In this document: positions 25,923 through 64,000 of the stretch, piece by piece | Layout of the letters: each line of letters starts with the position of its first letter | How positions within the stretch are numbered: the first letter of the stretch is position 1 | Source of the DNA: Trileptium ribeirensis | Lineage: Eukaryota; Nematoda; Enoplea; Enoplida; Thoracostomopsidae | DNA length: 64,000 nucleotides | Direction of reading: 5' to 3' | Assembly (NCBI GenBank): GCA_030248225.1 | Contig: JASANE010009792.1 | Coordinates: 1-64,000, forward strand | Position numbers and translations under genes: made by a program | The notes under the pieces: generated by a model | What the model saw: only the letters and a program-made list of their open reading frames with translations | What the model was told of the DNA's origin: nothing | The model's database searches: none

Positions 25923-25930
25923 CTAGCCAG

Positions 25931-27210: not shown

Positions 27211-27214
27211 CTAG

Positions 27215-38280: not shown

Positions 38281-39295
38281 TATTGTAGGTAAACTCGTTA
38301 ACGCACGACGCGTCAATAATTTAATGATTAAAAACACTATACAACAATACAGCGTTATGCTGGTTATTGTCAGCTTTTTACATCTCAACGCTTACAACAA
38401 ACTTCTCATTTCGCAATTAGCTACTACTAAATTACAACGCAATTCTACGTTTTCATCGGCAAATCGGTGCAAGCTTCAGCAGCATATGATGTGCCGCGGA
38501 GCGTTGTGTGACACAAATATATTGTTTTATTCCACGAAATTGCATCGTGCAAATGTGTGTATTTGAGGTGGAGATATTCACCCTCCGACAATAAGCGATT
38601 CCCCCGCATGGGCGGGTGAATAGCTCAACCCATGTAACGAAATATGTATGTAGAAGTAAACAGTTGGAACTACCCTTAGTCTGGTATATACTTGAAGCAT
38701 ATGATGCTATATCTTATCACAAACATTCACGTTTATAGCACTGAGAAGGATAGAGATAAATTAAAGTTTGCAAAAATCGGAGCGATTCACCCGCTTGCAC
38801 GCTATATTCTTATGTTATTCCTTACTATTCCTTAGTAAATACTGCTAGATCTTTTTAGCGTTAAGTTTATTGTGTGTTACAATTTGGTTTCTTAGCTTAG
38901 GTTATGTTTTTAGTTTAGTTCTTATTAAATATTTTGGATTCCATTTTTTATTTTAATATTGCAATTCTGTTCAGTTTAATAATAATTAAATTTCCTTTTC
39001 ACACTCCTTCGTTTTCTAAATTTAACCTGAGTTTTTCGTTTTTCCCGTTTGTTATACTGCCTGCTCATTTCTTTTATTTCCTTAATAGCTTATATTTAAT
39101 TGTTAAGTTCCGTGATAGTTCGGGTAATCAATGATAATGGGCTCATTTTATAGTGCAGTTCGTCTTTTATTTAACTGCAGATGATGTACATCATTTTCAT
39201 TATTCAAACTTTGTTGTTGTACCAAAGTGAGCTTTTGAATGGACCGAAGAGACCCAAAATACACGAAAATGGCGGTACCTCCATAACCGCATGAG
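38281..39295. other. no recognised gene
   Basis: Possibly the 3' untranslated part of the pogo-like element to about 38600; no terminal repeat found. T-rich from 38850. Confidence 0.3.
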
Positions 39296-40508: not shown

Positions 40509-41492
40509 ATAACATACTCACCAGACTGGGTCTGGTGCAGCCATAATCTTCAGTGAGTATTCAAACAGCATTCTGCGAGGCTTCTGTGACATGCACCGGA
40601 CCAGTTTGAACGCCTCGTTGATACGAGGCGCGAGCATTGTTGAAAGAAAGAAAACAATATTAAAGTTCGGGCAAGGAGCCAGATGCGTGAAGCCGCGCCT
40701 TGAACACCGACATAGAGATGGCGTCCACAACCCAATCAGATAAGCTATTCCACGAGTCCACCGCCCGATTTGCAAAAAAGTATTTTCGAACGACAAGTCT
40801 GGGGGCCAATTTCACCCGAAGTTTGTGGCGGTGTCCCCTGGTGACAACATTGCCAGGCTCAAAATATTCAGCCAAAGTAGTTGGGTTGTCGATCATGCGG
40901 TAGATAGAAATGAGGTCGTTACGTAGCCGTCTTGTCTGCAGCGTTTGAATGCCCAAGTAGCGCAGCCTGTCGTCGTAATCAAGATGGCGGATTTGAGGCA
41001 GAAGTTTAGCTGCATGACGTTGTACTGACTCGATCAACTTTATGTCTCCAATGTAGTGAGGACACCAGACAGCGACAGCATACTCAAGGTGAGGCCTGAC
41101 GAGGGCTCGATATAAATGTAACCAGATGGGTTTAGTCCACGTCTGAATGGTGCGATACAGCAGGCCGATCACTCTGCGGGCTTTGTTTGCAGCATAGCGG
41201 CAGTGTTTTGACATCTTGTAGTCAGGAGTGAGCATTACCCCCATATCTTTTTCAAGTGTTGATTGAGACAACAGGTTGTTGCAAAACGACTATGCAGAGC
41301 ACGGATTAGTTGAGCCACAGTGCATAACTGCACATTTATCGAAGTTGTACTCCAGAAGGAATGTTTCGGACCACAAGGTAAGACCATCAAGATCAAACTG
41401 GACATCGTCGGCGCCGATGCCGAATGAGGATCGTGTTATACGCCTAGCTAATCTGATATCGTCGGCAAACTTATAGAGCTATGCTCATTGCG
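40509..41492 (-). pseudogene. CR1-like non-LTR retrotransposon, 5'-truncated, minus
   Basis: Read on the minus strand, RT begins at the active-site FADD (41458-41469) and continues with DKCAVMHCG. After a short frame change it goes on as a 203-codon open frame (41271-40660): LEKDMGVMLTPDYKMSKHC, LYRALVRPHLEYAVAVWCPH, LIESVQRHAAKLL and an end with AVDSWNSLSDWVVDA. This is the thumb and C-terminal part of a CR1-like RT. The fragment sits inside an older hAT-type copy at its 3' end. Truncation at the 5' side is usual for target-primed insertion. Confidence 0.85.
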
Positions 41493-41730: not shown

Positions 41731-42172
41731 CAGGGGCGCCCGCAGGGGGGGGCAAGGGGGGGCACTTGCCCCCCCCCTGGAAAATGGAGGTGCGGAAAAA
41801 TCATAAGGGTCCCCCCTTGTGAAAATTTGCCTCCGAAAATCATTTTCAGAGGCACCTTGACGGTTGCAATTTCTGTTTCAAGAGTGACTGACAGTGTAAG
41901 TCTATTAGGCTGTATAAACTTTGAAGTAGTTTGCAATGTCAATTTCATGTTATATATGCAGCAACTACTGACGATGTTTTTGGGTGTGGGATGAAACATG
42001 CATATCTGAAAACCGTAATTGTGCTGTGAAGTAGAACTGAATTTTAAGCAAAACTTAGAGAAAGACCGCCAATTTTGTGTTTACAAGTTGCCTTAATGCG
42101 GTGCGGTAAACGAGTCTTAAATAAGAAAAAAATTCTTGCCCCCCTCTGGAAAAATTTCTGCGGGCGCCCTTG
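41731..42172. mobile_element. hAT-like MITE with AAGTTTAT duplication
   Basis: Ends CAGGGGCGCCCGCAG and CTGCGGGCGCCCTTG are inverted copies with one difference. The perfect 8-bp AAGTTTAT is at 41723-41730 and 42173-42180. CTTGCCCCCC-CTGGAAAA text is repeated just inside both ends. 442 bp, non-coding. Confidence 0.92.
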
Positions 42173-42180
42173 AAGTTTAT

Positions 42181-44594
42181 GTAAAGTTCGATATGATGGT
42201 ATTACCAGATTGGTTGCATCCATAGTAGTTGGAGACCACTGCGGCTATGCTGTTATATTAAAGACATAGTCCGCAAAGACCCACATCCACACCGTTATTT
42301 TAGTTAACATAAAGTGTTATATAGGATGATCCCTGGCTGTGATACTATTGCAAACAGATAAAAATAATCCATGATTAATCGGATCTAACAGCATGTTACC
42401 GCCAGTTGTAAGCATCAATTATTATACAACATATTGATCAGAACGGAAATAACAATGTTAAATGATACAATGTGCTCTGGATTTTATATAAGTAATTAGG
42501 CACTCACTTAGGCTGCCAGTCTTCCTATCCAATATTAAATCTCAAGAGGAATTATATAGCTTACTGTATAAAAATGACGCACAATTAAATGCGCTGTGAA
42601 ATACCATCTTAAAAATAGCCCCCTGTGTTTCAATATCCGTTCGGCTAAGTTTTGACGTTGTTTGAGACTTTAGATATTTTTACTCTGCTAATAATTACGT
42701 CAAAGAATTACAAAATTCTACGAAAATAATAGTAATAATATACTCAAAATATTGTAAACATTTGATAGAAATTGTGCACGACTAGCGAAAATAATAAATA
42801 TATTGATTATTTACTTTTAATTTTTTGCATGTAACATTGATTTATTTACAATTAATTGTTTGACTATTATGTTTTGAATATTTAGAATATCGATGATTGA
42901 CTAAAAATATTTCACTTAGTTTTGACTAACTATCCTTCATCATAGCGTTTTCCTGTTGGGTCAAGCACAATTAGTTATATCACAAATTTGAGGACAAATG
43001 TTGTACACATTGTTATACGTATTATACATTGTTTTACTCAATTATCGTACGGTGTTATATTAAAAATTAAATTAAATGACATATCACACCACAGATGTTC
43101 CATTTTATCTCAAAATAAATGCATAAAATTAGCAAATATGAAAAATGTTAGTGCCGATACTAAATAACCATGCTTTTTGTCACAGCCTTACCGCTGTGAC
43201 ATTGTTTTCGAATTTTGTCTGACCGTGCTTAGTGTGAATTTCTATGTTAACTAATAGTGTTATATCACCATTCGCGCTCAACTCAACAGCGATTTGACAT
43301 GCATAAAATTCTTTAATAATAAAAATTAACGGTTGTATGAAAATTTTAGTCTTAGATGTCGTCGCATTAATGAAAAGCGTCGACTGATATGTGATGCAAA
43401 ACTAGTGGTAATTTCCAATAGGTTATTCGACGCTGTGAATATAGCTGCACAATAAGCATACAAAGACAGCACTGTTCTAACACTGGAAAAACCATTTGGC
43501 CAAATTTGGCTCATTTTGAGCAAATTTTATTCAATAATTTTGCGGTGCAACTACCGTAGGGCCATTAGTGCGTTAAACTCGAGAAAATATTCAATTTTTG
43601 CACCAAATGAAAAACTTAATAGAAAAGAATAATAACATGCCTTATTTTGCAGCAAAGATACAATCTCCTAATTGTGATTTTCGCAGCTTTTGGTTATAAA
43701 CAAGCTAAAGTTGCGAAGTTGACGATCCAACCGAATTTCCGTCGTCAAAAATACGAATAATATATCATCTGGTGCTTCATATATTATTTTAATTATATGG
43801 TGAAGGTTCTGAATTTGTAGTTCATTATTTAACTTGGATTTTTTAAATAATTAAATAAAATAAATTTTAATGGTAATTGAAAATTATCCACCGATGTACT
43901 TTCATGATACTACACTGGTAAAAAATATACTTTACTGTACATACTATATACAGGGGCATCGCACAGGTATTTTACCATACAGAGTTGTTGCCCGTGTGTT
44001 ACGGAGCACGCAAATTTGGTTTGTTAAACAAAATTATGAAGTTATAACACAACAATTATATTTAGTTAATTTTCCAGACCAAAAAACATGGGCGAATCAA
44101 CAGAATTCATCTGCCCAACATTACTATGTTTTGCTTTGAAATTGTCTTGTACTCCAAATTAGAATGTTGAAAACGACTAACACTAGAACACGTTATATTA
44201 GAAGCAATCTACGCTGTTGGTAGAGATTTATAAATTCCATGAATGAAATGAATGTTTCGTTAATACAATGGCCGAATGGTAAGGCATTGATTGGTTGACT
44301 CTCGCACGGTGAATACGTAAAGCCTCGCACAGAAATCACAGCTTTCTAATGCTTTATTTAAATTAAGATATTTCGCCGTTTACCACTTTGTTTATTATTA
44401 CTAGATTGAATTTTATATCGGCGTAGGTCGAGAACACCATAAACTGCTATGGCACGTTTCTCTTAAGACCAAAATTAATTTAGCTCATTTAAAAATCACA
44501 GCTATAAATAGAGCTTTCGACAGCAAAGCTTGTTCCATTTGATATGATTTTCTTGTCTGACATGTACATTGAATTAAATGTACAATTTTGTATA
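42181..44594. other. AT-rich, no recognised gene; one tRNA-like A box
   Basis: Short frames only; the 89-codon one at 43870-44139 has no signature. At 44269-44279 TGGCCGAATGG fits a Pol III A box with one mismatch, but no good B box follows. Confidence 0.35.
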
Positions 44595-44687
44595 AGCTAT
44601 AATATATAAGTAAAAGCAAGAATGTATATGGGGTTCTTGGTAATTTACTAAAACTACTTTATGCACTCTTGCTGACAATTTTGTATA
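44595..44687 (+). repeat. 93-bp tandem repeat, unit 1
   Basis: Unit begins AAGCTATAATATATAAGTAA and ends GCTGACAATTTTGTAT. Units 2 and 3 are at 51476 and 51569. A partial earlier unit end (ACAATTTTGTAT) precedes it at 44583. Confidence 0.9.
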
Positions 44688-46529
44688 TGTAACAAGCCCG
44701 TTCCGCCCGTTACGTTATTATCGCAAGATTCCGACGTTAAAACGGCTTCAAGGTACCTCAAATTGAACGAAGATGTGGTTTATGGGAACAAATTATCGTA
44801 GGTCGCGTGGTGCCATGGTCATTGTCAATTGTATTGCTTACAATTGCTTGATCTTATGTCATTGATACACTTGATATATACATGTATATATTTTTGCCTT
44901 TGTATATCGTAATTTGTAACTGTACGCCATTTTGGGACGGGCCCACGGGCCGGCTAAGAGTTTAGAATTTATATCTACGACGATGAGGCAAATAATAGGG
45001 AGCCTGAACGGAACTCGAACCGAACTCGACCACTAGCCCCTATTTTCCAAATTGAAACTTCAAATTTGTGACCGTCCGGGAATAGAAGGCCACTGGTTGA
45101 TTGAATCATACCATTACCGCACAAGTGATCAAAACCGAGAGTATCGCTTTTACTTGGTTTAAGCTTTATATAGGGTAGTGGTGGCGTAAATAAGCTGAAA
45201 TCAATGGGTTACGGTAGCTTCCGAGTAGTCGGAAACAACGGACATCGGGCCTGTTTATCGGCCGGTAACCGATCAACGGTTCAGATTTCCCGAAAATGAC
45301 CCGAGTACTTTTCGGTAGAGCATTTTTAGGGCTTTCGAAGGAGGTCAAAATGTCACCAATCACTGGAGGATGTCACGAGATATCTTGGGGACAAACAGGC
45401 GAAAGTTCAATTAACAGCCATTACTTACGCTAGGTTTGGCTGGTGATCGCGGTTCCGAGTGGACAAAGCTTAGGAATATATGGATATATAGCTATGTATA
45501 TATATATGGTGTGTGTACTGTCTGATTTTTCGTGTCTCGGTATGTCTATTTTTTCGCCCCACTGTGCATCCATTCTTTTATAGTGTCCTTCGACGCCCCG
45601 AAATTGCCTGACCAGCGCCCTAGCAACGGGTTTGTTCTCTTTACCGCCGAATCATCGATTGGAAGTATGCGTGCCTCTAAGTAGTTTACCCATTTAGACA
45701 TGTAACGAGACCAGGCGGGTCTCGACTTGACTTGTCAATCCGTTGTAGTATGAATTATTTGTCTGTTATTAATGCACCACGAAAAATTGAACATAAAATT
45801 CCGTCCGCTTGCACCAACTCCGTACCTGACCCCTGACCCTAAATGCGCCTATGCTCATTCTACTCGCCTGCTTGTGGTGAACACAACGATATACGGCGGG
45901 TCTCCGTCTGACTTCTCGCTAGCCCGCTATAACCCGTTAAAGTGCTCCCAGTTCGGCATACCGACTGAAAGTGGGTACAAACCGACCGAAAATTTATCCC
46001 AAACTCGAAAGTAGGCAAATCGCCCCTCGTTGCTTTCACCATAACGAGACATCACCAAAAATGCTCGGCGGGCCTCCGTCCGTTGCCCCGTTAACGCGGG
46101 ACAGCCGACAAAAGCGCCCCCGCCGCCATCGACACTCTATCTGTCGTGATTTTAGTGCCCCCCTAACCACTGATAGGGAAATCACCCATCGTTTGAATCG
46201 CTTTTCCAAGGCGAGTTCAACGATAGCCGGCGGGCGTCGCTCCGCCCAACCGTTAGCGCGGGAAAGCCCGCTGAAACCCTGTATACTTACATATGTCGGA
46301 ACCCAAAACTGGGTCCCGACCCACCACTACGCCTACCCCCCTCGTGTTTGGTATCGTTCCGCCCCGTTCTTCGTCCTGGGACCGAATTTCGCCCCAACCC
46401 CTCGAAAATCCCCCGGGAATCCCTGTCCGCGTCCCTTGCCGTGCCCCTTCTTTTCCGCTTTGCGTCCTCGTTTTTCTTTTCTTTTCTCTCTCTAGCCGAC
46501 TTCTTTGGTCGGTTGTCGTTGTTGTCGTC

Positions 46530-46600
46530 GCTGTGGCTGGGTTGTATTTGTTGTTGTTGTGGTGGTTGCTGTGTAGTTGTTGTTGTTGTTCTGCGTGTTT
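46530..46600. repeat. TTG-rich triplet repeat
   Basis: Runs of TTG/TGG triplets, responsible for long overlapping frames on both strands in this area. Confidence 0.8.
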
Positions 46601-46669
46601 CTGTGTGGACTTGAGCGACTTTCTGTCGCTCAGGTCGCCCATGTGTCTCATGTATGTATTGTGTGTTTA

Positions 46670-46775
46670 TGTGTTCATGAGTATATATGGATGTACATGT
46701 GTATGTATATAGGGATATAGATATATATGTTTGTATATAAAGATATATATGTATATATAGAGTATATAAGAACAT
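46670..46775. repeat. TA/GT-rich simple repeat
   Basis: Imperfect TATATG and TATAGATA repeats over about 100 bases. Confidence 0.8.
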
Positions 46776-47060
46776 GACAAAAAACAGGACATACAGGGAC
46801 AAGACGTACAAAATTCTGCTAATTTTGTAAGTTTTACGGACGGACTGGTCAAGGACGACTAGAAAAGACGGGGATGCGTTTAGAGCCCTCCCATGGGTTC
46901 CTGAGGCCCCTGACTAGGGCCCCCGATAGCTCAAAGGATACACAGGAATGTGGTGCGCCCCCAAACAAAAAAGGAACTCATTCCCGCCATAGGTTCCCCC
47001 TTCGGGACGTCTAAAGACGCCCTGTTAGGATATTTGAAGAGCTGTCAGCTAGGAATGTTC

Positions 47061-47110
47061 GGCTTTATCCTATAAGCCGACATGTAAACGTGCAATGTTT
47101 GCACGTTTAC
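47061..47110. other. two adjacent strong hairpins
   Basis: CGGCTT...AAGCCG arms near 47060-47079, then a perfect 12-bp stem GTAAACGTGCAA (47084-47095) with TTGCACGTTTAC (47099-47110) and a 3-base loop. Both lie in the 6.8-kb insertion. Confidence 0.75.
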
Positions 47111-49253
47111 CCGTGGATTTGATAGTAAGATTTAGCCCCAGATGGACTTTTAAGAAGCTTAAGTAGGTGATGGATGGGGATGCTAACTCGCTAAATAGCA
47201 GAAATTTAGCCTTAAATCGACGAGTTAGCTGACGGAAATTTGATGAATGAGGACCAGAACACCAATCTGTCCCGAAATGAGGACAGATTTTTAGCTTACT
47301 CCAAGCATCTTTATGTAGAAAAGGAGATTTTAAAATTTTAAATCTGACGGGTGATTCAACCATTTGGTGGGACAGTTGGGGGGATAACGGACAATTTAGG
47401 ATTAGGTAAGAGATTCAAGAGATCTGAGTGATGATCTTCAGATAAATTTTTGACATAAATTTAAAAGTAACGATGGATGAGGTTCAAGATTTCGCTAGAT
47501 TTGGGCTAAATTCACAGATGTTCGACCTCCGAGTATTCGGGGGGTTAAATTTGATGTCGGCGATTTCGATTGAAGCCGACTCTCTCTAAAGGGGACCCAG
47601 GGTTTACGATAGCTGTCAAAAATAAAATTTTGGGAATTTTTTGATTGTGCGCCCGGGTTTTATCTCAAAAAAGTAGGCGTTAAAAGATTATCACCGATTG
47701 GATGGCGACAAAATCGCTATCCTCCAATATAGGCGGAAATTTCGAGGCGACGACTACCGAGTCGACTCTTGGAATCAGTTCGACTTCGGCAGCGTGGAGT
47801 TCGGTCGACTGTACTGACCGGCTCCGACGCTAGAGTTTTATTACATCGGTTTCGCAATTCGTTTTACTTTTCCGTGCTTTTCCTTCGATTTGCGTTTGGA
47901 ATGGGATTAGGCCGATGGAGGACCCGCGTAGACATCTTCCGTCTCGCGGAAGGGGACTAGCAACTGCTGTCCCGGACCGAACATTTTAAGTCAGGAAGTG
48001 AACCAGGCGTATGGGGGTGTATTTTCCCCAGATCAAAATGTAACAGACCATCGAAGTTTACTTAGCTACAGCACGATTTTGATCTCGGTAGTTCGACTGG
48101 ACGCCCGTCGGAGGACGTCCTGTTCACCCACGTCAACCTGTCACGCTTTTAAGTGTCCCTTGACAAACCTTCTCTGTCGAGTTCCGTTTTGGGGGCGTGT
48201 TGAGTGATTGCACGGGGGGTGTTAGATTGTGAACACCAACGTCGAAGTAGTTCTGATTCCCTGTGGTCATAGGTAAGGCAAATCAAAATGGACACCTCTC
48301 GTCCATACTTTACATGACTTATCACTCTTGAGTTAGGACTAGCGAATTTTCCTGAGCTGACCACGGTAAACTTTCCCAACGTAACCATAGGGACTTGCTT
48401 GCTGATCTTTGTTTATGGTTATGGTTTACAAATTTTTAGCTTAGTGGACCGTTCGACCCTCATGCCGCTGCTTGAGTTCGGACTGATTTCGCAGTTAGGG
48501 ACAGGGGACTCGCCTCTGTCGGGCTTTAGGAAGCCCTAAAATTTCATTTCTCAGTCGAGCTAAGAAAATTTGGGGAATACATAAAAGACTAAACAAATTC
48601 TAAGAACCTTACCTTGAGCATAAGGTATTAGCACTCCGCGAGGAGCGATTCTATATACTGCCTTGCACGATTTTGCCCGTATTCATTTTGTTCATTATTA
48701 AAACAGTCGTTATTAGAACTGTATAGGGACCTACCCCCCGGACTACTCGAATCCCCACACAGTCCTATGACACTACTCGCTAGGAACTCACAAAGGATAC
48801 TGCTTTATAATGCTTACTCCGAAACTGTCACGAGTAGGCTATGAAGTTTACTTAAGTTCAATATGACACGCGCATGTGGTTAAGCTTAATAGTTGTATCT
48901 AGAAGAAGAGATTTCCCTTAAAATGAGCTGACAACCTATTCAGTTACCGTTTCCAGTTAAGTTTAAATCCTTGGAGGTACGCTACGGTGCCCCCTGCTAA
49001 AAATAGAATCGCAATATCCTAACTTAAATAAAAGAGAATCGCGACTTATCGCGAAGCGTTTTGACCCCAAACCGAGCAAGTGCAAAACCCCGTTTTTTTC
49101 TTTGGAGCGAGTTGATCTCTGACTTTAAGCATATTTCTATTTTATCCCTGGTTGCCCGTTAGGCTATGTACTATGTATGCCCTTGCTTTGATATTTGCCG
49201 TTTTCCTCTCTCTCCTTTTTCGGTTTTCCTTGTTAAGTTTCGATGCTGCACGG

Positions 49254-49299
49254 GGGATTTAAGTCCGCTTCAGATCTTTCAGTACTAACCACTCGACCA
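49254..49299 (-). repeat. tRNA-like Pol III promoter boxes (SINE-head candidate)
   Basis: On the minus strand TGGTCGAGTGG (49299-49289) fits an A box, and ACTTAAATCCC (49264-49254) is an 8 of 11 B-box match. Spacing is slightly short for a tRNA. Weak candidate. Confidence 0.25.
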
Positions 49300-49440
49300 T
49301 CGGGTTCTGAGAAAATTCATTAAAATTTTGGTGATAACACGACTGCACAATTTCACTAGTGCAGTCGAGACACTGTACAATTTCGATGCGTACAGTGTAA
49401 TAGGATCTTAGGATGAGTTCGATAGAGAGAGGACAGAAAA

Positions 49441-49545
49441 AAGAGAACAACCAAGGAAACAAAGAAAAGGAAAGAAAGGAATCAACCCAAAAAAGAGAAC
49501 AACCAAGGAAACAAAGAAAAGGAAAAGAAAGGAACCAACCAAAAC
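49441..49545 (+). repeat. 52-bp purine-rich tandem duplication
   Basis: Two units beginning AAGAGAACAACCAAGGAAAC at 49441 and 49493, almost without G/T-rich interruption; the frame through it is low complexity. Confidence 0.9.
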
Positions 49546-50089
49546 AACCCCAAAAGAAAAATACACAGACCCTCCTCAGGGCGCAAACTATTCACAGTTG
49601 TGGGACGGGCGCGACGGCCTGCCCACACGGTTGAAAAAGGCCGCACTGGTCGCTTAGGAAAATCGCCCAAGACGGTATTTGCTCGTGCCCCCACCTAGCT
49701 AGGCTGCTGAAAAAGCTACTCGGTGCGATCTTTCAGAATGATCAAAACAGCGTCCTCGACGAATACAAGATAGTTCCACTAGTATCCTACCACCAAAATC
49801 AACCGCTTCGGCACACTCCCATCAGTTAGGGATTTTGGTAAGGACAAAAGAATTTGTGACCTCTGATGAGGCCACTGAAATCTTTGGGACAAAGGTAATC
49901 TGCGCGTGGCACGGAGCTCGCCTAAGTCACGAAACAGTGTGAGGAACCGCTAGGGATACTAGGCGAGATTGACAGAATCCGGAAGGCACACCGGACGGAG
50001 CTTCCTTACAGTTGACTATCGAAAGAGTACTTTGTTCAGACAATAGGATTCTTTGGTAGTTGCTCGTTGCGATTTCACTGATAATATGT

Positions 50090-50183
50090 CCATGCTCACG
50101 TATTGATTTGTACCATAGCTGCTTTGCTTAATTTACCCATGCTCACGTATTGATTTGTACCTTAGTTGTTTTGCTTAATATAA
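50090..50183 (+). repeat. 47-bp tandem duplication
   Basis: Units at 50090 and 50137 begin CCATGCTCACGTATTGATTT and share GTACC(A/T)TAG(C/T)TG(C/T)TTTGCTTAAT. Confidence 0.95.
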
Positions 50184-51475
50184 CCAGGCCCTGACCTGCA
50201 CTAGGAGGCTAGGCTCTGCCCGGTGCGATCGTTCTAGCTCTCTGCTAATGGACAGATCCAGTCGTGTTTGCTAGCTTCGGCTCGCCGTCTAGGTGGCCCA
50301 TGGTTTCGTTACCTTCGTTGCAAGCATACTCTTGCTCTTGTCGGGCTAGCGCACTCCCCACCCAATGCGACTTCCCGTTTGCCTGTGATTTACGTAAAAC
50401 CCTTATAGCGACGCGCGTTATTGAGAGCGTTATGGAGAGCGAATTTCGACGCACGCCAAAACGCATGTCCTGAGTCACAACGGAAATGAGTATGATCAAC
50501 AATAATCGGCTCGAACCTAGATTTTGGTCCGGCATTGCCGGGATCGCCCTCGCTCTTGCTGCCTCTTCCCCCGCTTACCCGTAAACGAGGGAACGAATGT
50601 TCAAAGTGTCGGAGCGTGGCCGCCTTAGTTTGCACTGTTTCATATACTGTTTCGATTTCCTATCTTTGACTGTATTTGTACCGAACTTCAAATAAACTCT
50701 TGAAAACCACTGGACGTGTCCCGTGTTATTGAATTCTTAGCGTGATAAGGATGTCCAAGTGGACGGGCCGACCCTTCGTGCCACGGCTTGCGGACGTAAA
50801 TACCCCAAGCCCTGACACGAGCGGTCCGCTGCCAATATTGAAACAATTGTGTAGTGGTCTTGCAGCGAGAATGGTCCACCGAATTTTCCGCCGAACTAGT
50901 TCGTGTAATTGTCCCGCTCGCACAGAATACAAAACTTACTTGGAAAACTTTATCACTAGATACCAACACGGTTAAGCTATCAGGATACAAAGTAGATAGT
51001 CCGATGTTAAACTCTCAGGGAATGTCCGAAGCCTGTGGGGGCCATATAGGCTATAACGAATAAAGTGTTCAACCAAGAATAAACTAGGTAGAACTCAGAG
51101 TTTACCTTGTAAAGCCTAAATTATCACGCGCTTTCACTTTAGGTCACGCTAGATAAAACAACTTCCGTTAGACTAGGATAGGGAATATCGGTTTGACATT
51201 ATGACCTGTGAGCAGGTTTCGGTGTCAACCTCGCTGGGGGACCTCAGCAATCATACCCAGATACTAGACACGTGCGCAACCAATCGGGCGGGGTCCGAAC
51301 ACACCCCGTGAAGCGCGCCTGCGGCATGCTAAGCTTCATAGCTTCTTCGGTCTGACCAAGAGAAGTAACGAAATCTCAAAACTTTGGGTCCGCCCTTGAG
51401 GTTATGATAGCCCGGGTCGTACGAGCATGGTGTTAGGAAGTTGCGCCATGCAGCAGCGTCACCGTTATTACATAT

Positions 51476-51654
51476 AAGCTATAATATATAAGTAAAAGCA
51501 AGAATGTGTATGGGGTTCTTGGTAATTTGCCAAAACTACCTTATGCACTCTTGCTGACAATTTTGTTTAAGCTATAATATATAAGTAAAAGCAAGAATGT
51601 ATATGGTGTTCTTGGTAATTTACCAAAACTACCTTATGCACTCTTGCTGACAAA
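51476..51654 (+). repeat. 93-bp tandem repeat, units 2 and 3
   Basis: Unit 2 is 51476-51568 and unit 3 51569-51654. Each begins AAGCTATAATATATAAGTAA and differs from unit 1 at a few positions. Together with 44595-44687 they formed one array before the 6.8-kb insertion. Confidence 0.95.
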
Positions 51655-54197
51655 AATTCTTGCAAGACAAAATTTTTTTAATCATTCTTACAAATTTATT
51701 TCGTTTAATTTACTTCACTGATTTGCCATTCATTTATTATACAAATTAGTTCATTTTTATGATATGTTTTATATTAATATTTTTACGACAGCTACAAAAT
51801 ATATTAATGTTTCGGCCTTCGGACATGTTTCACTCTTACGTTCAAGTCAAGCATCAAAAGTCTACGCAGACAAAAGAGCATATCCCAGAGTTATAATATA
51901 TAGTTCTACTTTATATTTAATAGAAAAAATTATTTTACACCGGGACAGTAGTTCTGAGTAACAAATATATCTTCGAAAAAACGTTCCCTGTAAGTGGTGT
52001 TGTATAAGAAGCGTCTGTATCACAGCAAAAAATAGTTGTGCAATTATGCATATGGCAACAATCGCACTTTCATTTTAGAATATATGACTTAACTGAAAAT
52101 CTGGAAATTGATTCGTAACTTAATCCCAATAATTGGGTACAGCAAATTTGGTACTTTGTTCTTTTATAATTGGTAATAAAATTGTGCCACGTTTTAGTAC
52201 CGACTTGGGCTTTCAATGTATTATAAAAATTATGGGGTCTATGTGCCAAATATATACATCGGAAAAGTATTCGATGTAACTTGCAAAGATGCCAGTACAA
52301 AGTATTTATGACTGTTATATTTTGCCTAGATACTAGAAAAGCTAGAATATATAATTAGAGATTTTCCACTTACATATTTATTGCCCAGCACTAAGCAACA
52401 TTTGACGATTCAAAATGGCGTGACGGCATTTATCAGACAACTTAAGATCTAATATTGTTTAATGTAGAATGTGCTAATCCACAAAATAGTGATATTTTGA
52501 AATCATTAAGCACCCTATATTGCGAGTGAGAAGCTGGCTAAGATAGACATCTTATATGTTCTTGAATCAAATTTACAACCTGATTAAATGCACACGTACT
52601 GAGGTTTTGCATTTTAGTTTACATAAAGTGTTGAAAATCATCTATACGTAAATATTTTTAAACACTGAAACATTAGTTTAGAAATTTCAAGTAATTAATA
52701 ACACTGATAATCACACTGCAACTAAAGCGTACAAGTTTTTCGGAACAAACATTATTTTCTATGACGATTGATTTATTAGTAATTATATGAACTGAAAAAA
52801 ATTTAATTCTCGTAGTAAGCAGATAAGATAAAATTTTGTCAAGATAGTAATTAAGTTTTCGGAGAGTAGCCCACAAGGATGAATGTATTACTTAATAACG
52901 TAAAAAATGTTTTGACCTAGACAGTCCGCAGAGCAATAATCATAGATGGTGTATAAACGATACAAAAACTGAAGGTTGAAAGATGAATGCACAAAGATTT
53001 GATTGTAAAGTTGTACTTACTAAGGTTGTTATTTATCAAGTCAGTTCTGGATCGTCAACGCGATGAATGTAGCCAAACAAAGGTTTTCCTCTTACTTACA
53101 CAAAAGTTTGTGATATAGTATTATGTAGGTGGTGCTCGTGGTCGCCATTTTGCGATTTAGTATCGCATTTTTCTGACCGCGTACATGGGAAAACTTGATT
53201 GTCAATCGCTTTTTTGAGTATACTTCAATAAATACATAGATTGTGAACGCAGCTGTCCGATTCAACAGTCATTTGGTGAACACAGACAACCGTACGAAAC
53301 GAAGAAATGTGCACGTACGCAAATTACTATCGTGCTTCGAGGAGCATTTGTTCGCGTTCGCTAAAATGCAGAAATGTGAGCGCGAATGATGTAGTTTGTA
53401 TTTTAACAAAATGACAACCATGGTGTACGCACCTAAAGTGAAATAATGCATAAGTTCGACATAAATTAAAGCTATTTCAAAGTCAGGTCTTGCAGAAGCC
53501 TATTACCTTATCGTTTAAATTGTCATCAGAAGCCGAAATATAGCCTAATAGAAGAAAAACAAAAATAAATTCATAATCTTGCCAAACAGTGTTGTTAAAA
53601 ACTGGGAGACAGAATCATACGAGGAATGTTAAGTTAGATTGAACCTTGTAAGCTGTGTATCACAAAATGATTACATTTCTAGCGCGCTGATGAGAAGCGA
53701 TCATGATTAATCAAAGAAATTACATACATCATTTTTACTTGAATAAAAAGCTATAAATTACCATTCGGTTTACCCAAAGTAATAGTAATCATTAATTGGT
53801 CATCAGCTACAGCGTAACCTTTGAGTAAACTAAATAACTGCTGTGGCAGCCGTTATGATTTTTTCGGTGGTTGAACAAGATAGAAAGACGGATGGGCTAG
53901 GATATACAGGGTGATCCAAATCGTCACTCCAAAATTGTAGTGTTTTTCTGCCAGTTTTGTTGGTTCTCACCCAAAAAATTCAGATAGCTAGCTTTCATTG
54001 TTATGTTTCTGCTACGTTGGTCCGGTTTATTGAGGTTAATTACTTTCTACCCGCATTGTTTGTTGTTGTTAATTACTTTCTACCCGCTCTAAATTATTAA
54101 AACCAGAATATCAATGCAAAGTTTCATACGTTTTTGGGAAACTCGCACAACAATTGAGATGACCCGCAATGTAATACAGTACACATTTATTAAAACG
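51655..54197. other. AT-rich intergenic, no recognised gene
   Basis: Short frames only. A segment at 53105-53200 resembles 60236-60310 (shared TTTAGTATCG and CTGACCG). ACAGGGTGATCCAAA at about 53909 looks like the edge of a DNA element, but no partner end was found. Confidence 0.35.
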
Positions 54198-54258
54198 TGG
54201 CTGAGTGGTCTAGCTCGCTATACCACCCTATCATTTTACAAAGTGCGTGATCAACTCC
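54198..54258 (+). repeat. tRNA-derived SINE head (candidate)
   Basis: TGGCTGAGTGG (54198-54208) is a perfect Pol III A box. TGATCAACTCC (54248-54258) matches the B box at 9 of 11 positions, 50 bp further on, as in class II (Ser/Leu) tRNA-like heads. I could not fold a full cloverleaf, so a functional tRNA is unlikely. Confidence 0.45.
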
Positions 54259-55811
54259 CGCCGGCACCTGAATTTCTATATTTAATGTAGTTTCTTGTTC
54301 CAAGCAAATATATGATGCCACCAACAAATGAAATCAGTCTGGGCCTATCATGGCACTAAGAAAAGGCGATTGAAGACTTGGCTATGCCGTTTATTCTATT
54401 GGTGCGAATTGAACGATGAATTCATATGCCAAAGTCGAGACTACGTAGGTTCACAAATATTAACTATCAGAACTATAGTAGCATATATCACAATATAACG
54501 GCTTTAGGTTGAACGTATGACTCCAAATTTGTAGCAACCGAACGGTCCGTGCGAAGCATCAAGTTAAGATTTTACAGCGAATTGGTCGTCGCGGCTGTAA
54601 CCATATTAGTGTCGCAAACTTGCTGTTACCCAAGAAACCTGTTTTGTATACTACTTAAGAAAATATTTTACTGGGAACAAAAGCTTTGCGGGCTAGTGAC
54701 TCTGCGCGCCATTGCCCTGTTTTTGAACCCTTAAACCACATATTTGAAATACTTAAGCAAAGAGTAATAGTCATAGCAGATTGTAATATTTGTGAATCTT
54801 CACCAGATTGTCGCTAAATATTAGCACTAGCTATATTATTTGCACCACATGATGCTCTATAGATAATACTTATCGACCGCAACTGTTAAAGCACGTGAGC
54901 AGTACTTTAAAAGCTTGCCAATTAAAGCCAATTTTTGTGAGAGTTCTTTATTAGCTCTGACAATTTTTCCGAAGAAATGTGCCATAGCGAACCAAAATAT
55001 TAGAAGCATATGCGATATAAAAGTACAAACATTTCCGATAAGAATTCAAAAGTCACCCCTGTTCAAAAATGTGAAAACATAGCACACCTATTGGTGCCAC
55101 TGTGCTTCAAGTTCAGATGCCAACAGACTTACATAGTTTTTCCTTTAGTGAATGTCGCTGCGAATTGAATACAGGTTTTCTTTGTTGTAGTGAAACGTTG
55201 TGACGCTTCGAACAGTACGTTGTCACGTGCAGTATTTTAATCTTTGTGTGTAAATTTGAGGAGTATAATTCGGCTCTTTTATATGGTCAAATGGCGTAGT
55301 AGAATTTACTCCAGCTCCCTCATATCAATTATCGATAGAAACCTTTTGAAGGACCATTGAACTAGAACCAAAAAGACAAAAATTAGCTCATGCAAAGCAT
55401 ATAATATGTTAAAATGAGTACTTATAGCATGGACCTGCAGGTGTGTTGGATTAATAATTACATGTATCTTTACCATACGAAGGTATCACCGTTAGACTGT
55501 AAAAAGTGGAAAACAATATTATTGCTTCTTGGCATTCTTGTAAATTTGGTCTGAATAAATAGAATAATTTATTTTATCGTTTTATGCTTTTAGATAATTT
55601 TCTCTTAAATCTAAAAGAAACGGGTATTAGTAGTTGGTGAGACAATTTATAGGTGTACTATAACAAACAAAATATTCATATATAAAAACATTACAAAAAT
55701 CTGATCAAATGTATACCATGCAGTTTTTATACAATTGCCGATGTAAAAGTGCAGTGGCGCATACGGGTTCATAACAGCCAACTTTCAGTGTCTATCTCAA
55801 AACTAGATGCC
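54259..55811. other. upstream region of the PstS-like gene
   Basis: AT-rich. No exon recognised. The frame of the next exon is open back to 55686 without an ATG before 55812, so an upstream exon joined by an acceptor (for example at 55887) cannot be excluded. No clear promoter element was identified. Confidence 0.35.
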
Positions 55812-56230
55812 ATGTTGGCGTTTGGAACAACAGTTCAAATATTATGTTATTTATTGCAAACATATTTTTATTTGGTGAGAAGCGCAGGTGGTATCGTAAC
55901 TAAGCCGTCAAATTCAAAAACGACAGGCGAGCAACATATTGATACTAGTAACGGTAAATTAACTGAAAACGGTATCGTTAAAGTTAATGGTATTGGCGCA
56001 GGTTTGCCTAGCATAGTTTATGGCGAATTTGCTAATCATTTTGAAACCATCCGTGAGCATGATCCTGTGGACGTGTCCTATTATACGACTGACAGCTGGA
56101 GCGGAATTTGCAGTATGACACACGAGTGTCCAGTGTCGGACACGTACGTTTACGGTGGAACTAGTGTCGATTTATCGGATGAAGAAAAACGCTTATTTCC
56201 GGAGCTAGTTCTGATCCCAACTATGGCTGG
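55812..56230 (+). CDS. PstS-like ligand-binding protein, N-terminal coding exon
   Basis: The exon encodes the first lobe of a phosphate ABC-transporter substrate-binding (PstS/PBP-like) domain. The run VNGIGAGLPSIVYGEFANHF matches the beginning of mature PstS (GAGATFPxPVY type). VDVSYYTTDSWSGI matches the next strand and Ser-Gly loop, VYGGTSVDLSDEEK stands where FGASDAPLSDEE is usual, and VLIPTMAG equals the IPTVAG hinge. The first in-frame ATG is 55812; residues 2-22 are hydrophobic and could be a signal peptide or anchor, though the lead lacks a basic residue. A GT donor (GG|GTTAGT) follows 56230. If unspliced, the frame stops at 56238. An upstream exon with acceptor at 55887 is the alternative start. 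Confidence 0.8.
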
Positions 56231-58001
56231 GTTAGTTTAAGCGTGTGTTCAGTATAGAACCATAAAAAGGCATGCCACAATGTTATGGTCTTATGTGGTT
56301 ATAGTTTTATGTCTTACAGTAATGTGGTTTATTTTGCCGCACTTTCCAAGCATCCTTGAGCTGGTCCCCATCAAGGTTCTTTTGAAGTTCCTGCCGTCAA
56401 GAGGCTACCTGCCAATCAGATGGGATCAAGGACATCGTTTATCCATGGCTGCTATTCTTGCTCTTTTTCGGTGATTAATAGAATCCTGCGAACCTATAAG
56501 CTCAATACACCTTTGCGAAAGACTATTTTTCTCCAAACAACTTTTGTGATTCACCCACCAACAAGCATTCTAGGCGAAAGCCAAAACCGTTTTATTTATT
56601 GTAATATGTCCGAAATATCGGACTCCTCTAAAAATTTGTCTTCATTAACACTGGGTTTTAACGATAGTTTATTCTAACGAGCTAACATATGACTGGTTAA
56701 TGGAAATCCGCCAATTTCGCAGACGGAAGAGCGAAATTGTCCATAATGATTTTGCCCAAATCAACGCAACGTTACCTATGCTTTATGGTTTTATAAACAT
56801 TAACATTTAAACAAATTATAATTACTGTTAGGTCTCAGACCCTACATAGGTGCTTTTATAAATTTTGAAAAAAGGACATTTGAAAGTAAATTTTAAAACA
56901 TGTATTTCCATCGGCACATGATATATTAGAGTCCATAAAACCATAAAATATGTCGATAATTAGACCTGCTTCATTAGAAATACATTTATAACCAAAATGG
57001 TATATGTGTATCACTATATTTCAAAAAATCTATACATTTTGCTAAGTTTAATTAGATAACTATCTGGGTGGGTGGCACGTAAGATAGCAATATTCACCGT
57101 TGGCTTAACCCTACGTAATATCAGACATTATAATTCGACAAAAAGTAGGTATGACCCCTAGACTCTGAACTGAAATAAGGAAACATCCACACGATCTTCC
57201 AAGTTGTAGGCAAGCCTAACCGACATCTAGTAATCATTAATATAATTGCTATTCCAAGCAGGACGCACCATAACTTGAGCTAAATTCGAAGACAATAGTT
57301 CTTAATATTTGTGCGAAAGATAGATTGTCCTGTTGCTAAGTTATGGCACTCACCCAAAGTTTTGTTAAAATAGCGTATATGACTCAGGAACGGCCCGACG
57401 ATATACGCAATTTTTGCACCATTTATTGTAGTTAATCATCGATTCATAATGGTAAAAGCATATCTCTGTATGTGTAAACAAAGCTTACTTTTATACCAAA
57501 CTCACGTCGAAATTTGTGGTAGTTTCGGTCTATAACATGGTAACCGCTGAAGTTGAGTGAAAAAGGTGTTACAGTGCAGTAGACCTGAGCTATTACGACT
57601 AGAGCCTTGCCATCTTTAGCAACTGAATAAGAGAGCAGAAGCAATCAATTTATTGTCAAAGTCGCCTAGGTATGGCTGTTATTTGTTGCTGTAGCTTAAC
57701 GATGATGTGGGATATATGGTTTAAATGTTGACAGTGGGTGTACATATAAGCTCTAGATATATTACTAACGTCGTCCATACTACTGCCATAAACTGCCAAA
57801 ACCAATACTGTTTACCAACATATTGTGTTCGTCTATATTTCGCCGTTATAACTTATGGATATGGAATAGCTGACTATGTTCGGGTCACGTGTTTTCTATG
57901 CACGTGATGACTTTGTGACAAGTCGATACTGTTGAATTCATCCCAATATTCATGCATGGCTACGAAATATGAAGTGAAATGATTTTCCGGATCAGAATTG
58001 A

Positions 58002-58088
58002 TCAAATATTGGTGCTAATGTCTGTATCTTTGCAAAGAATACCCCATCGACCAAATATTGGTGCTACCGTCTGTATATTTGCACAGAA
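58002..58088 (+). repeat. 49-bp tandem duplication in intron
   Basis: Copies at 58002-58039 and 58051-58088 share CAAATATTGGTGCTA, GTCTGTAT and TTTGCA(A/C)AGAA, with a 49-bp period. Confidence 0.85.
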
Positions 58089-60482
58089 CATTTTGATATA
58101 CTTTATGTTGAGCTGCGATCGATTGATATCTATTAATTGACTTTATTAGTTACCTTGCTCGTATGATCTAGGTATTACTCAGGGTATGATCTGTCAAACG
58201 ATTATATAAAAGTAATGGCGCTAAACCCAAACTGTCTCAGCCCGGCAGCGAGTTCAACAGCCATAACTCTGCAACGCTTTATAGTATGTAGATAAGTTTT
58301 TCTTATGTGTGTTTAAAGGTACGTATATTCAGTGATTACCAACAGTTAATTATGAACCCCTGAAGGAATATGTGACTCTCGTGCCACTCTACATTCAATA
58401 CGCTATAGTTTGACGTGTCTATTTTTGCGTCATTTGTCCTACTTTTTTGGTTGGGACAGTATAACATAACTTTTCCCATTTTATCCTGCCAATTTTAATT
58501 CTGCCAAGTTTTTTCAACTTCTGTTGTGTCCCAGCAAACTTTAGTCCTCGCCAGATGCAGGACATAAGTTTGCCTGGAGTGGGGGGCACGACTAAAGTTG
58601 GGGGAGGGGGAAGGTGCCTGGGGCAAAGCAAAACTAGGAAATTTGTTCCCCCTAAAAGTCGGACAATTGATAGAAAAATTGTCCCCATCATCCCACAACG
58701 TGCATAATGTAGTGTGATTTGGGTGTCACACTCTTCTACAAGGATTCATCATGAACTATAGGTATTTACTATTTATGTATGTATATTAACCAAGGTTAGG
58801 GAAAAGCGTGCTGATGTACACAAACGTACATCAATTTTTTTCGAGCTAAAGAGTTTTACTGTCAATAACTTTCAGTAACGAGTAAACTGAATAAGTCAAA
58901 ATTTTCAAAGTACGTGTAAATTATTAACCTCGCATACTAGCAGAAGTGATATTCTATATTACTTTGATGGTGAATTAATGTCGTTCGTTAATATTTAACA
59001 AGTTATTAGGCGACCAATTGTCCGCAAGAAAAAGTAAGGTACTAGCGAAACGGTCCTAAAGCCGTCGATCTTTTATAACTGAGCACTGAAGTTTGTAAAA
59101 TATAGTAGCAAACATTGAAATCTACCAAACAAAAAGGCGTATCACCGTTACAAATTGCGTTATCATAAAGTATATAGTGGTCTATTGCACTAAGTAAGAT
59201 AAAAAATTATGCGTAGCCTAAGCAAGAAAGTTAGCAAATCAACGTCAGTTTCGAAATTACCGCGCTTTTTGGCCTGCATGAATTCCAATAGTGTTAACTT
59301 TTACATATGCATAATACTTTTGAATGTGAACTTTACTGAAATCCTAAAATACATATATTTAATGATTTCAGTAAAGACCACATTTAAACTCTACATTCAA
59401 AATTAAGACCACACTAATCGTCGTTTTTCGAAGAGAAACCACAAACCCCTGACAAAGAAGCTAGTGAGTGAATCGAGAAGAACCCATAATTTACCGGCAG
59501 GTTTCTTCTACATGGAGGTTAAGGGAAAATTCTCCGTTCTAAATTTTTTTTAAATTAAGTTAAGAGAAAATTCTCCTTTTATACGACATTAGCATAACGC
59601 ATTGGCATACAGCTTTTTTGGTATTACTTCGATATCTTTACAGATATGCGTGCACATACTATTTGAACATTTTTCATTTGGGTTTTTTGATTTTCCGGAA
59701 AAGTGCGTTATCGGCACCGGGCTCCCGCAATGCCTGTTAGTTAGATTCTCCCACGCGGAAAATTTCGAAAAAAGTTAAGCGATATGGGCGATTTGGTTAG
59801 TTCTCTAGCGTTGCCACAAAATTGGGCCAAAATCCCTATGTTTTACACCTGATGTATATAGTGTAATGGTGTTTATTTAGGTGTAGATTCCAGTTTTTTT
59901 CATTTCGGGGAGTAGCTCGATAGCTAGTGAGCAATCAAAAAAGTCTTCGGCATTTCATTTTTATTTGAACTATGACTTGCGCTCTTATAGCCGCCAAAAA
60001 TACGCAAATTTTCCCCAAAATGGCCAAATTACTCTGTCAGTGTTTGTTTTAAGACGTTAAATTATATTTTGGTGGACAAATTAATGTTTAGGTGACAGAT
60101 ACTTGATCAGGAACGATCAAGTTTATTTTTTCGACAGCCTAATTGTCAAGCATATTCACGGTCTTAATGCATTGTCCGCGCAAAAATTTGCACGAACCCC
60201 TGTCTTCATATGCGCTATTTCCAGTAGTAAGTCGCGTGGCGTTGGTCTCGGTCTGCGAGTTTCTATTTAGTATCGTTATTTACTGACCGTATACACTTGA
60301 AATAATGATTTTGGCTCCTTTAATTCTGTTGCTATCCTTATTTACCCCGAACTAGCCAAATTTTGATGATCTAACTCTTGGCATTTGGTTGTTGTAGCCT
60401 AGAATAGTGCAAACGACTTGATTAGTTTTCTGGTAAAATGACATATGCTAGTAGAAAAATGCCTTGACGGGCATGAAAGAAG

Positions 60483-60654
60483 AAACCCCTGACAAATTGT
60501 TATTGGGAAAATATATCGTTAGGAAACGCGTGCTTAATTCTCTATGTGAGGTAGAGTTTGTGGTGAAAAATACTTTTATACTAATAATCAAATACCGAGG
60601 TAATGCGTTACGGCACTAATTTTGCTTTGAAAAATGCATTTATTTGCTTAATGA
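60483..60654 (+). repeat. inverted repeat arm 1 in intron
   Basis: Matches the reverse complement of 62035-62200. It shares AACCCCTG near the outer edge, a GTTATT-AAAATAT-CGTTAGG block, ACTAATAATCAAA, the perfect CGAGGTAATGCGTTACGGC (60596-60614) and CATTTATTTGC at the inner edge. Confidence 0.8.
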
Positions 60655-61194
60655 ACCGGTGACATATCATTGGTCTTTGCGATTCAAAAATGCACCATTG
60701 TTTTCAATTTAACACGGAGTTCTATGTTGTCTTGGGCTTAGTATGCTGAAATTACGTTGTTGAGCACGAAAAAATTTCGCATTCAATATTGAAAAAACTT
60801 TTGAAACTGGTGAATAGATTACCCTGATCATGTTTCCCTATATTTTACTCTATCACAAAACCATCAATTAATGTGTATGGTAATGTTTATTAGAAACTGC
60901 ACTGCAACAGGTAGTATAACGACGGCAGCGTGTGAGGTGTACATATCAACATACCGATTGCCTCAGTCTTGTGAAATCCTGTGAACTACTCTAGAAATTC
61001 CAAAATATAGCATTTGTTTCTGTAGAGTAGGCTGGGGCGGGATTTGCTGCTGAGGTAGTCGCGTAGACGTATCTATATTCACGTTCGTTCCCACTGAATA
61101 GAGCAAGTTTTACGTTGTGAAATGGAAGATATTTCAGTACGATTATGTAATGTCTCATAAAGTATATTATAATATTATTAAAGTAGAGCTGTTG

Positions 61195-61262
61195 GCATTG
61201 TGTGCAGTACTATTAATTAACATTGTGCGCCGTACTGTTAGCATTGTACGCCGTACTATACT
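61195..61262 (+). repeat. ~22-bp imperfect tandem triplication
   Basis: Three units of the type GCATTGTGTGCAGTACT, ATTGTGCGCCGTACT and ATTGTACGCCGTACT. Confidence 0.75.
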
Positions 61263-62034
61263 GAGGTAGTATTCGATAATATTAATTTGGTTTTTGAAAA
61301 TGTATTCAGAGGCTTTGATTGAGTAGCATAAAAACGTGTATTGATATCTGACATACCATTTTCCAGGCTTTCGAGTGGTTATCTCTTTTGTCTCAGGAGT
61401 ACTTTTAAAATCATATTATTACTTGTTAAATTCGTTATGACTTGAAGTTGTTTTGGCTTGTTAGCTTGTCCTGGAATGGATACGTCTCTTAAATAGCCAC
61501 CCGAAGATGAATTAAGATAGGAATAAGCTCTGTTTTAGTCTTTGTATTAGTTTCGATCAGGCACATTGGAAATTATAGACTGCTGGTGTCTATAACTCTC
61601 TACGGTTTTAATTGCCGTAAACTACATATTGATGTATGAAGTAACGACATTGAATCACAGTTTGTTTTAAACTGCAAAGGGTTGTGCTTCGTGGATATAT
61701 TATACAAGTTTTAAAAAAGTTAAATATTACTCAAGCGCTGGAACCCTGTTGCACTATATGTTGTTGTTTCCTGCAAACATTACCATACACATTAATTAAT
61801 TGTTTTGTGATAACGTTAAAGACGTAAGAATACGATCAGGGATAATCTATCCGCCAGTTTCAAAAAATCTTCTTGAATACAAAACTTTTCCTTGCTCGAA
61901 ATCCCATTTTTCCACCGCAATGTCCTTGTACAGTACAATACACCGAGCCCAACACACCATGGAATGCCGTATTAAATTGAGAGCAATAGAGCAATTTCCA
62001 TGTCAACGACCAAAGGCGTATCTCCAGTCCATTT

Positions 62035-62200
62035 AGCAAATAAATGTATTTTTCAACACAAAACCTTTGCCGTAACGCATTACCTCGATTTTTAATTATT
62101 AGTGCAAAAGAATTTTTCACATACAACACCATGTTTGACGTAGCGAATTAGGTACGCATTACCTAACGTTATATTTTTCAAATAACATTTTCCAGGGGGT
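62035..62200 (-). repeat. inverted repeat arm 2 in intron
   Basis: Partner of 60483-60654 on the opposite strand, with about 1.38 kb between the arms. Roughly three quarters of bases agree by eye. Either two copies of one short element or the arms of a foldback-type element. Confidence 0.8.
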
Positions 62201-62656
62201 TGCTCTTCCATGCCTATAAAGGGTATTTTACCTTTTAGATGCAACTAAACCGCGTTTCAAGAAAAAGCATTTAATATTTGAACTATTTTCAAGCACCACA
62301 TTATTTTGCGTACAGCTGGCACAAATTTAACAGTATCGTCCATAACATAATAAAAACTAATTTTATTCAAATTGCCAAAGTACGGTACATCGCATAGAGC
62401 ACATCTTCGGATATAGTCTCACGGAAATAGACCCCAAAACACAATAACAGGCAATAGTGAGCAATTTGGTGGCATGACGAATGGCTATGATTGTGGTTTT
62501 CACACCTTATGACTGATTAACCGTTTTTTCTATAAGTTTTCATAAAGCGTGTATCTATAGAGCTTTTTATTGCTGCTTGACATCCAATTTCATAACATTG
62601 GTTATTTAAAGTAATAAACATGAATAGCGTTGATAAATATACACCTGAAGTGTGAG

Positions 62657-62687
62657 CGTTCGGCGTGCCGGTAATTTACGCCGAACG
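62657..62687. other. perfect 10-bp hairpin
   Basis: CGTTCGGCGT (62657-62666) pairs with ACGCCGAACG (62678-62687) around an 11-base loop, standing out in AT-rich intron. Confidence 0.8.
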
Positions 62688-63663
62688 TTCCACATTCGTG
62701 AGATGGCATGTTTGCTCATGTCATCTTTGCGCATGTCTTTTAATCTGGGGCAAGCAATTAAAGCCCCTTATTCCAGAGTGTCCAACTGTGAAATTGGTTT
62801 CAGTTTGCTTGGAAGGTTTACAATTTCTGCGTCTGAAGGCAACAAAGTTTTTGTGTGAGACAAATGGTATCCAGTAAGGGTTGTGCTCCTAATGTTGTGC
62901 AGGCTGGTAATACCACAAGACGACCGATCAGCACCTTTATCCCAATGTATCTTGTTTCTGAATACTTTGAATAAATACACTGTATTTTATCATGACTTTT
63001 CTGAATACTTATTCGACAAGGTTTCAAAAACATTTAGGTACATTTTGCTGTCTTAATGCGTCAGTTAACAAAATCGCTTTATAGCGATATTGTCCAAACT
63101 TTTAAATAATATGGCAGCAGTTCTTACCTAATACCAGATATATTTTTCAGAAAATACTTTACTCTAGTAATATTGCGCAAGACAACTTATTATAAATGCA
63201 TGAGTTTCGGGAAAACTAAATATACACAAAATATATAGACGCTACAGAACTTGTAACGAAGGACGTACTTCGGACCTACTGGAAGCATACTAAATATGTT
63301 TTCTTTGTTTATTAATATGCGCGACTTATTATGTTTTCATAGCAGCTATATAAACAACATTTATTAGTATATTAATGATGCTCTTTGCGTCGGAAGCCAA
63401 TATGTGCTACCTAATATTTAAATTTTCAGTATTTTTCTTCATTTTTAAGATGACGTATCTTTTTTCTGCAAAAAAATAGAGAAATCTCGGCTGGCTGTTT
63501 GAAAAAAGCGCCAAGCTTTCTACAAAAGTGGAAAATTCAATTTCAATAGTAATACAGTTCGATTCATATTTCGTGCATAAAATTTTGTTATAACGTTTTG
63601 TTAGCCAAATTACTTGTTTGATATATTTTCTTTTTCCGTTTCACGTTCAATTTTTATTTTTAG

Positions 63664-64000
63664 AGCTATAGTGATCGCGTACAACATGCCTGGCGTTACG
63701 TTAAGCTTGACACTACCTCAATTGGTTGGAATATTTAGCGGTCAAATAACATATTGGAACGACAGTTCATTACAAGAGTCGAATCCCGACTATGAATTGC
63801 CGAACGAACGGTTACGAGTAATCGCGCGACGGGACAGTTCCGGAGCGACGAAAATTTTGACAAAAGTGTTGAGCCTCGAAAGCGACGAGTGGAAGAAAAC
63901 ATTCGGTGTTTTCCAAGATCCAGACTACAATAGATCGGTAAAATACGCAAGCCGATGGCCCGTTGGTGCAATCAATATGTTTGCTTACGAAACTGTTGGA
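63664..64000 (+). CDS. PstS-like ligand-binding protein, second coding exon (runs off window)
   Basis: After the acceptor AG at 63662-63663 the frame continues the same domain without a gap: AIVIAYNMPGV (PstS: VVVAYNLPGV type), LTLPQLVGIFSGQITYWND (LSxxxLxxIFxGxIxxWND) and LPNERLRVIARRDSSGATKI. The last is the ligand-binding loop RxDxSGTT with T changed to A. LSLESDEWKKTFG and a WPVG segment follow. No stop occurs before the window end, so the C-terminal lobe and anything after it lie outside. In bacteria PstS delivers phosphate to a membrane transporter. Here the role is unknown. In-phase splicing into an uninterrupted family match makes this exon secure. Confidence 0.85.

Follow-up and report, generated by a model that had tools for sequence, protein, structure and literature searches.

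A spliced, divergent PstS-type domain gene in transposon-rich eukaryotic DNA and its possible role as a receptor ectodomain

The window analysed here (the whole stretch of 64,000 nucleotides, containing no N) carries at its right edge a gene for a PstS-type binding domain, and stops inside that domain. The gene and its associated features are as follows.

55812–56230, forward strand: exon 1, coding part, with a predicted start codon, leaving in phase 2
56109–56129, forward strand: loop CSMTHEC, containing Cys residues 100 and 106, the sole cysteines of residues 39–252
56231–63663, forward strand: predicted intron of 7,433 nt, GTTAGT...TTTTTAG, 36% GC, the top-scoring junction among 53 frame-keeping pairs
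60462–62222, no strand assigned: foldback (inverted-repeat) element inside the intron and outside the protein, arms 60462–60888 and 61775–62222
63664–64000, forward strand: exon 2, continuing the PstS-type domain and still open at the window end

In the open stretch spanning 55686–56240, no in-frame ATG precedes the one at 55812. Exon 1 ends in GG at 56230, followed by the donor GTTAGT, and exon 2, which begins at 63664, is preceded by a pyrimidine-rich acceptor tract whose last letters, TTTTTAG, reach 63663. The split codon (GG/A) encodes the hyphenated Gly of IPTMA-G-AIVIAYNMPGV. Frames are intact over 139 and 112 codons in the two exons, and the joined protein comprises 252 aa up to the window end. 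Fifty-three donor/acceptor pairs leave the frame open; scored with a profile of bacterial PstS proteins (see below), the 56231/63663 pair ranks top at 143.5 bits, with the runner-up at 125.4. Re-reading of both open stretches returned the same coordinates, splice signals and phase as an earlier note on this DNA, and the GG/GTTAGT and TTTAG/A junction that it placed inside the conserved run is the best-scoring of the open pairs. The predicted GT..AG intron restores the conserved frame, as in a spliced eukaryotic nuclear gene, and at the level of sequence the joining of two exons in phase 2 across 7,433 nt is confirmed.

Searches of Pfam with the joined protein (214-aa part) identify PF12849, PBP_like_2, at 8.9e-13 (49 bits, cut-off 27). 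Exon 2 by itself matches the same family at 4e-10 (40.3 bits), and exon 1 by itself does not reach it; the lone Pfam match for exon 1, to sCache_2, is sub-threshold (0.062) and was not adopted. Against solved structures of Escherichia coli PstS the joined protein scores 7.5e-17. The bacterial profile was built from 93 of 165 fetched loci (L001–L005, L086–L165 and eight of the 80 viral-contig loci), and a length filter of 250–450 aa kept 89 of these and removed four. It gives 143.5 bits for the joined protein, 101.9 for exon 2 and 23.2 for exon 1. As exon 1 has no PF12849 match of its own, it is assigned from the joined alignment together with the 23.2 bits. Among the 759 window ORFs of at least 40 aa, those of the exons take the top two places (scores 102.5 and 26.0; third rank, 3.7), and shuffling each exon 500 times yielded top scores of 5.7 and 5.9. 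Most profile rows were chosen as best matches to the query, so the profile is biased towards it; despite this bias, the Pfam and PstS structure matches agree. A tblastn search for further copies of the domain in the window, at E 1, finds the two exons and nothing else. The earlier note's assignment of a PstS-type domain is therefore upheld by Pfam, including the PF12849 profile that it proposed, by the PstS structures and by the bacterial profile.

A scan of genome contigs returned at least 485 confirmed loci among 596 stretches; the 80 matches listed have tblastn identities between 31% and 42%, but the two that reach 42% are partial matches, and the best full-span value among the 80 is 38%. 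All 63 plasmid records found by tblastn fall below 60% identity, and the best-ranked cover 86–99% of the query at 31–34%. Overall, tblastn identity to the bacterial matches listed is about 28–42%. A MAFFT alignment of 22 sequences reaches 47% in a single row, L133, which is short and partial. In a 90-row tree the gene sits on an end branch of 3.64, compared with a median of 0.2, and its highest identity to any row is 36% over 202 columns. The smallest starred set containing the gene has 36 rows, 22 of them cyanobacterial, a placement that is not to be trusted given the length of the end branch.

Among viral contigs, a single-sequence query examined 14 stretches and found no relatives; with an alignment as query, 255 of 431 stretches encode relatives, the 80 kept showing 29–34% identity. 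An alignment search of a protein set scored 8000 sequences, all at E <=1e-5; the best 120 of these are 239 to 368 aa long, and those with names are bacterial phosphate-binding proteins, so this search bears on proteins of PstS length and not on long eukaryotic relatives. Two single-sequence searches of a large protein set returned none of 611 candidates at 0.001 and none of 1004 at 0.01. The first also missed PstS itself, so failure to find relatives in this way is weak evidence.

The surroundings of the gene are rich in transposons. A Pfam scan covered 142 of the 164 window ORFs of at least 75 aa; each of the 22 omitted overlaps some scanned ORF at least partly. Thirteen families were matched at 0.01, mainly transposon domains besides PBP_like_2: reverse transcriptase (four members), RNase H-like, DDE_1, hAT dimerisation, integrase core, gag protease and zf-RVT, with three DUFs at 0.003–0.009. 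The transposon domains include RVT_1 (4.6e-28), RT_RNaseH_2 (5.4e-24), DDE_1 (2e-9) and hAT (4.7e-5). When ten ORFs were scanned singly, RVT_1 (21772–23538) and DDE_1 (37047–37550) exceeded their cut-offs; gag protease, two other RVT_1 pieces and an RNase_H piece fell below theirs, and four ORFs had no match. The 142 ORFs contain no pst transporter domain of the pstC/A/B type, and no transmembrane or 7tm_3 exon. No host gene other than the PstS-type gene was recognised in the window, and Rfam gave no match at gathering thresholds.

Several individual elements can be delineated. The 21772–23538 match lies in an open 589-aa stretch encoding a non-LTR-type reverse transcriptase, and 27181–29090 is the remnant of a second reverse-transcriptase element (RVT_1 6.7e-5 and 6.4e-5, RNase_H 0.0042, all below curated cut-offs). 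The DDE_1 match at 37047–37550 is a transposase fragment that we take to be pogo/Tigger-like. A dispersed repeat family occurs in both orientations at 25929–26604, 31542–32710, 36022–36613 and 39294–40515, with copies about 70–93% alike; a tRNA-Arg(gcg) prediction at 40011–40091 adjoins a repeat copy end at 40010, which could mean that the repeat has a tRNA-derived portion. Tandem pairs are found at 33717–34146 (214 nt, 97%) and 51475–51653 (93 nt), the unit of the latter recurring about 7 kb away at 44582–44687. The arms of the foldback element in the intron are about 430–450 nt long and 72% alike over 457 columns, separated by about 890 nt. GC content is 0.34–0.38 over 52001–64000 and 0.43–0.47 over 46001–52000, with an earlier dip to 0.32 at 42001–44000.

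The intron and the transposon domains mark the locus as eukaryotic, and from the appearance of the non-LTR and pogo-like elements, presumably of animal type, the host is probably an animal. The intron, the ceiling of 42% on listed tblastn identities and the very long branch rule against bacterial contamination or recent transfer, which we regard as unlikely; the gene may have come from bacteria long ago, but its branch is too long to be placed. The case that the earlier note had made against contamination holds, as does its description of a repeat-rich eukaryotic setting, transposon domains being present in the window. Judged by its sequence, this is an old, divergent eukaryotic gene for a PstS-type domain and no contaminant.

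The ligand site is partly changed. We take the phosphate contacts of E. coli PstS to be eight residues: T10, F11, S38, D56, R135, S139, G140 and T141. Equivalents of S38, R135, S139 and G140 are kept, each invariant in the 89 bacterial rows, as is D137, which lies outside the eight contacts and is Asp in 88 of 89 rows. The other four differ: T10 is replaced by Gly (bacterial rows: Thr 70, Ser 19), F11 by Leu (Phe 88, Leu 1), D56 by Ser (Asp 88, Glu 1) and T141 by Ala (Thr 89). F11 is thought to contact phosphate through its backbone, so the change to Leu means little by itself. The anion-holding Arg and the Ser-Gly pair are retained, and specificity for phosphate is doubtful. With about half of the phosphate-holding residues changed, an external sensor is likelier than a phosphate transporter. 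The earlier note's proposal of a secreted phosphate sensor is accordingly weakened in so far as it means a plain phosphate sensor, four of the eight contacts being altered. Across the domain, 33 alignment columns are near-constant (the same residue in 85 or more of the 89 rows), of which 21 are kept and 12 changed; on the latter count, the ligand site may have degenerated instead of having been reshaped.

Features of secreted proteins are also apparent. The exon 1 product begins with a hydrophobic stretch (Kyte–Doolittle), a putative signal peptide. Residues 104–108, in the region of the Cys pair, form a five-residue insertion, those positions being empty in 88 of 89 bacterial rows. Cysteines in the aligned part of these rows number none in 71, one in nine, two in eight and three in one. 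Sequons are present at residues 172 and 229. Taken together, the hydrophobic N-terminus, the Cys pair by the inserted loop and the two sequons suggest secretion.

The most likely function of the domain is that of a receptor ectodomain. As best reading we favour, at roughly even chances, a class C GPCR-like receptor from a eukaryote that is probably an animal, with this domain as its ligand-binding ectodomain. The protein would enter the secretory pathway, its outer part being the two-lobed PstS-type (PBP_like_2) domain, with the seven-helix exons lying to the right of 64000. The space between the lobes would take up a small anion or polar ligand, the lobes would close in the manner of a Venus flytrap, and closure would be relayed to the membrane part. 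Since the window ends inside the domain, we infer the membrane half; the class C-like reading draws on precedents in a fungus and in Plasmodiophora for which PBP_like_2/7tm_3 associations appear in the available source text.

A soluble secreted protein that lacks a membrane part and carries or scavenges extracellular phosphate, or some other anion, is the strongest competitor, at distinctly lower probability. It would account for the hydrophobic N-terminus, Cys pair and sequons, and the binding domain is all of the gene that is visible in the window; however, four of the eight phosphate contacts are changed, and the eukaryotic PBP_like_2 proteins of described architecture, in the source text available, are fusions to 7tm_3 or of the glutamate-receptor type (PMC3251606, PMC4815078). 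The domain might instead be carried not by a GPCR but by a single-pass receptor, namely a guanylate cyclase or a kinase. Insects and other invertebrates offer a parallel in their Venus flytrap receptor tyrosine kinases, going by the accessible part of the description of these kinases (PMC2680970), but no example with PBP_like_2 was met, and the literature search did not return PstS or PBP-like domains joined to guanylate cyclase, which is weak evidence; we consider this reading improbable. Less probable again is a pseudogene or assembly chimera, in which open stretches adjoin by chance or a copy is decaying. The transposon-rich surroundings and the 12 altered near-constant residues are compatible with it, but the frames are intact in both exons, the best of 53 junctions restores a conserved motif, and 21 of the 33 near-constant residues persist. 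A recently acquired bacterial pstS gene that still binds phosphate would explain the clear PstS homology and is very hard to reconcile with about 28–42% tblastn identity among the matches listed, the very long branch, a 7.4 kb intron and four changed contacts.

The presence of a spliced and divergent PstS-type gene in eukaryotic DNA rich in transposons indicates that eukaryotes encode at least one domain of this kind. Should the membrane half prove to be of the class C type, animals would share a chemoreceptor design already described for a fungus and a protist, and direct binding assays could be used to look for the ligand. We put forward as a tentative and rather doubtful generalisation that animals, or this lineage, carry a receptor class with a PstS-type ectodomain, a reshaped anion pocket and possibly a phosphate-related ligand, a family that the available text of a metazoan survey does not name (PMC12716839).

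The domain is the one found in bacterial PstS, and the equivalents of S38, R135, D137, S139 and G140 are shared with it. In contrast to PstS, the gene here has an intron and a eukaryotic locus, its residues equivalent to T10, F11, D56 and T141 differ, it encodes an inserted loop with a Cys pair, and no pst transporter domain accompanies it among the 142 ORFs. DING proteins, including HPBP, are members of the PstS superfamily obtained from eukaryotes, and the source text available describes their genes as missing from genomic databases (PMC2817009, PMC7922408); they have long been reported from animals, with bacterial contamination suspected (PMC2817009, in the part available). Their mature N-terminus is given there as DINGGG (PMC7922408). 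The matching stretch here reads VNGIGAG, and the best score to DING structures is 2.2e-4, compared with 7.5e-17 for PstS, which rules out a DING protein. The present gene leaves the DING proteins as such unaccounted for.

Metazoan class C GPCRs (mGluR, CaSR, GABA-B, mGlyR) likewise have a ligand-binding ectodomain, mostly two-lobed. Unlike the domain described here, their ectodomains belong to other Pfam families: the 2025 opisthokont survey, in its available text, lists ANF, EGF, NCD3G and Cache for metazoan glutamate-family receptors (PMC12716839). As PBP_like_2 is not named there for metazoan receptors, an animal member is unexpected. The literature search, which was partial in coverage and so does not imply absence from print, brought up no description of a PstS-type receptor in animals, and PBP or periplasmic terms do not occur in the portions available of PMC4302439 and PMC10580291.

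Outside animals, periplasmic-binding-protein ectodomains occur in class C GPCR candidates of diatoms, three of which resemble components of ABC sugar transporters (PMC3727952); these are PBP1 and sugar-type domains, and PBP_like_2 is not named in the text available. A survey of social amoeba GPCRs includes PBP_like_2 in its abbreviation list, within the portion accessible (PMC10445921). The precedents with PBP_like_2 itself in a glutamate-family receptor are fungal and protist. One is the fungal protein SPPG_06488, presumably from Spizellomyces judging by its locus prefix. PBP_like_2 is named in this glutamate-family receptor in the source text available (PMC3251606), and proteins of Plasmodiophora brassicae join PBP_like_2 to 7tm_3, for which the authors, in the part accessible, use the term novel transporters (PMC4815078). 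These proteins, likened to ours by domain description, share with it the eukaryotic use of PBP_like_2; theirs is reported in seven-helix proteins, whereas here the host is probably an animal and the 7tm_3 part is predicted to follow beyond the window.
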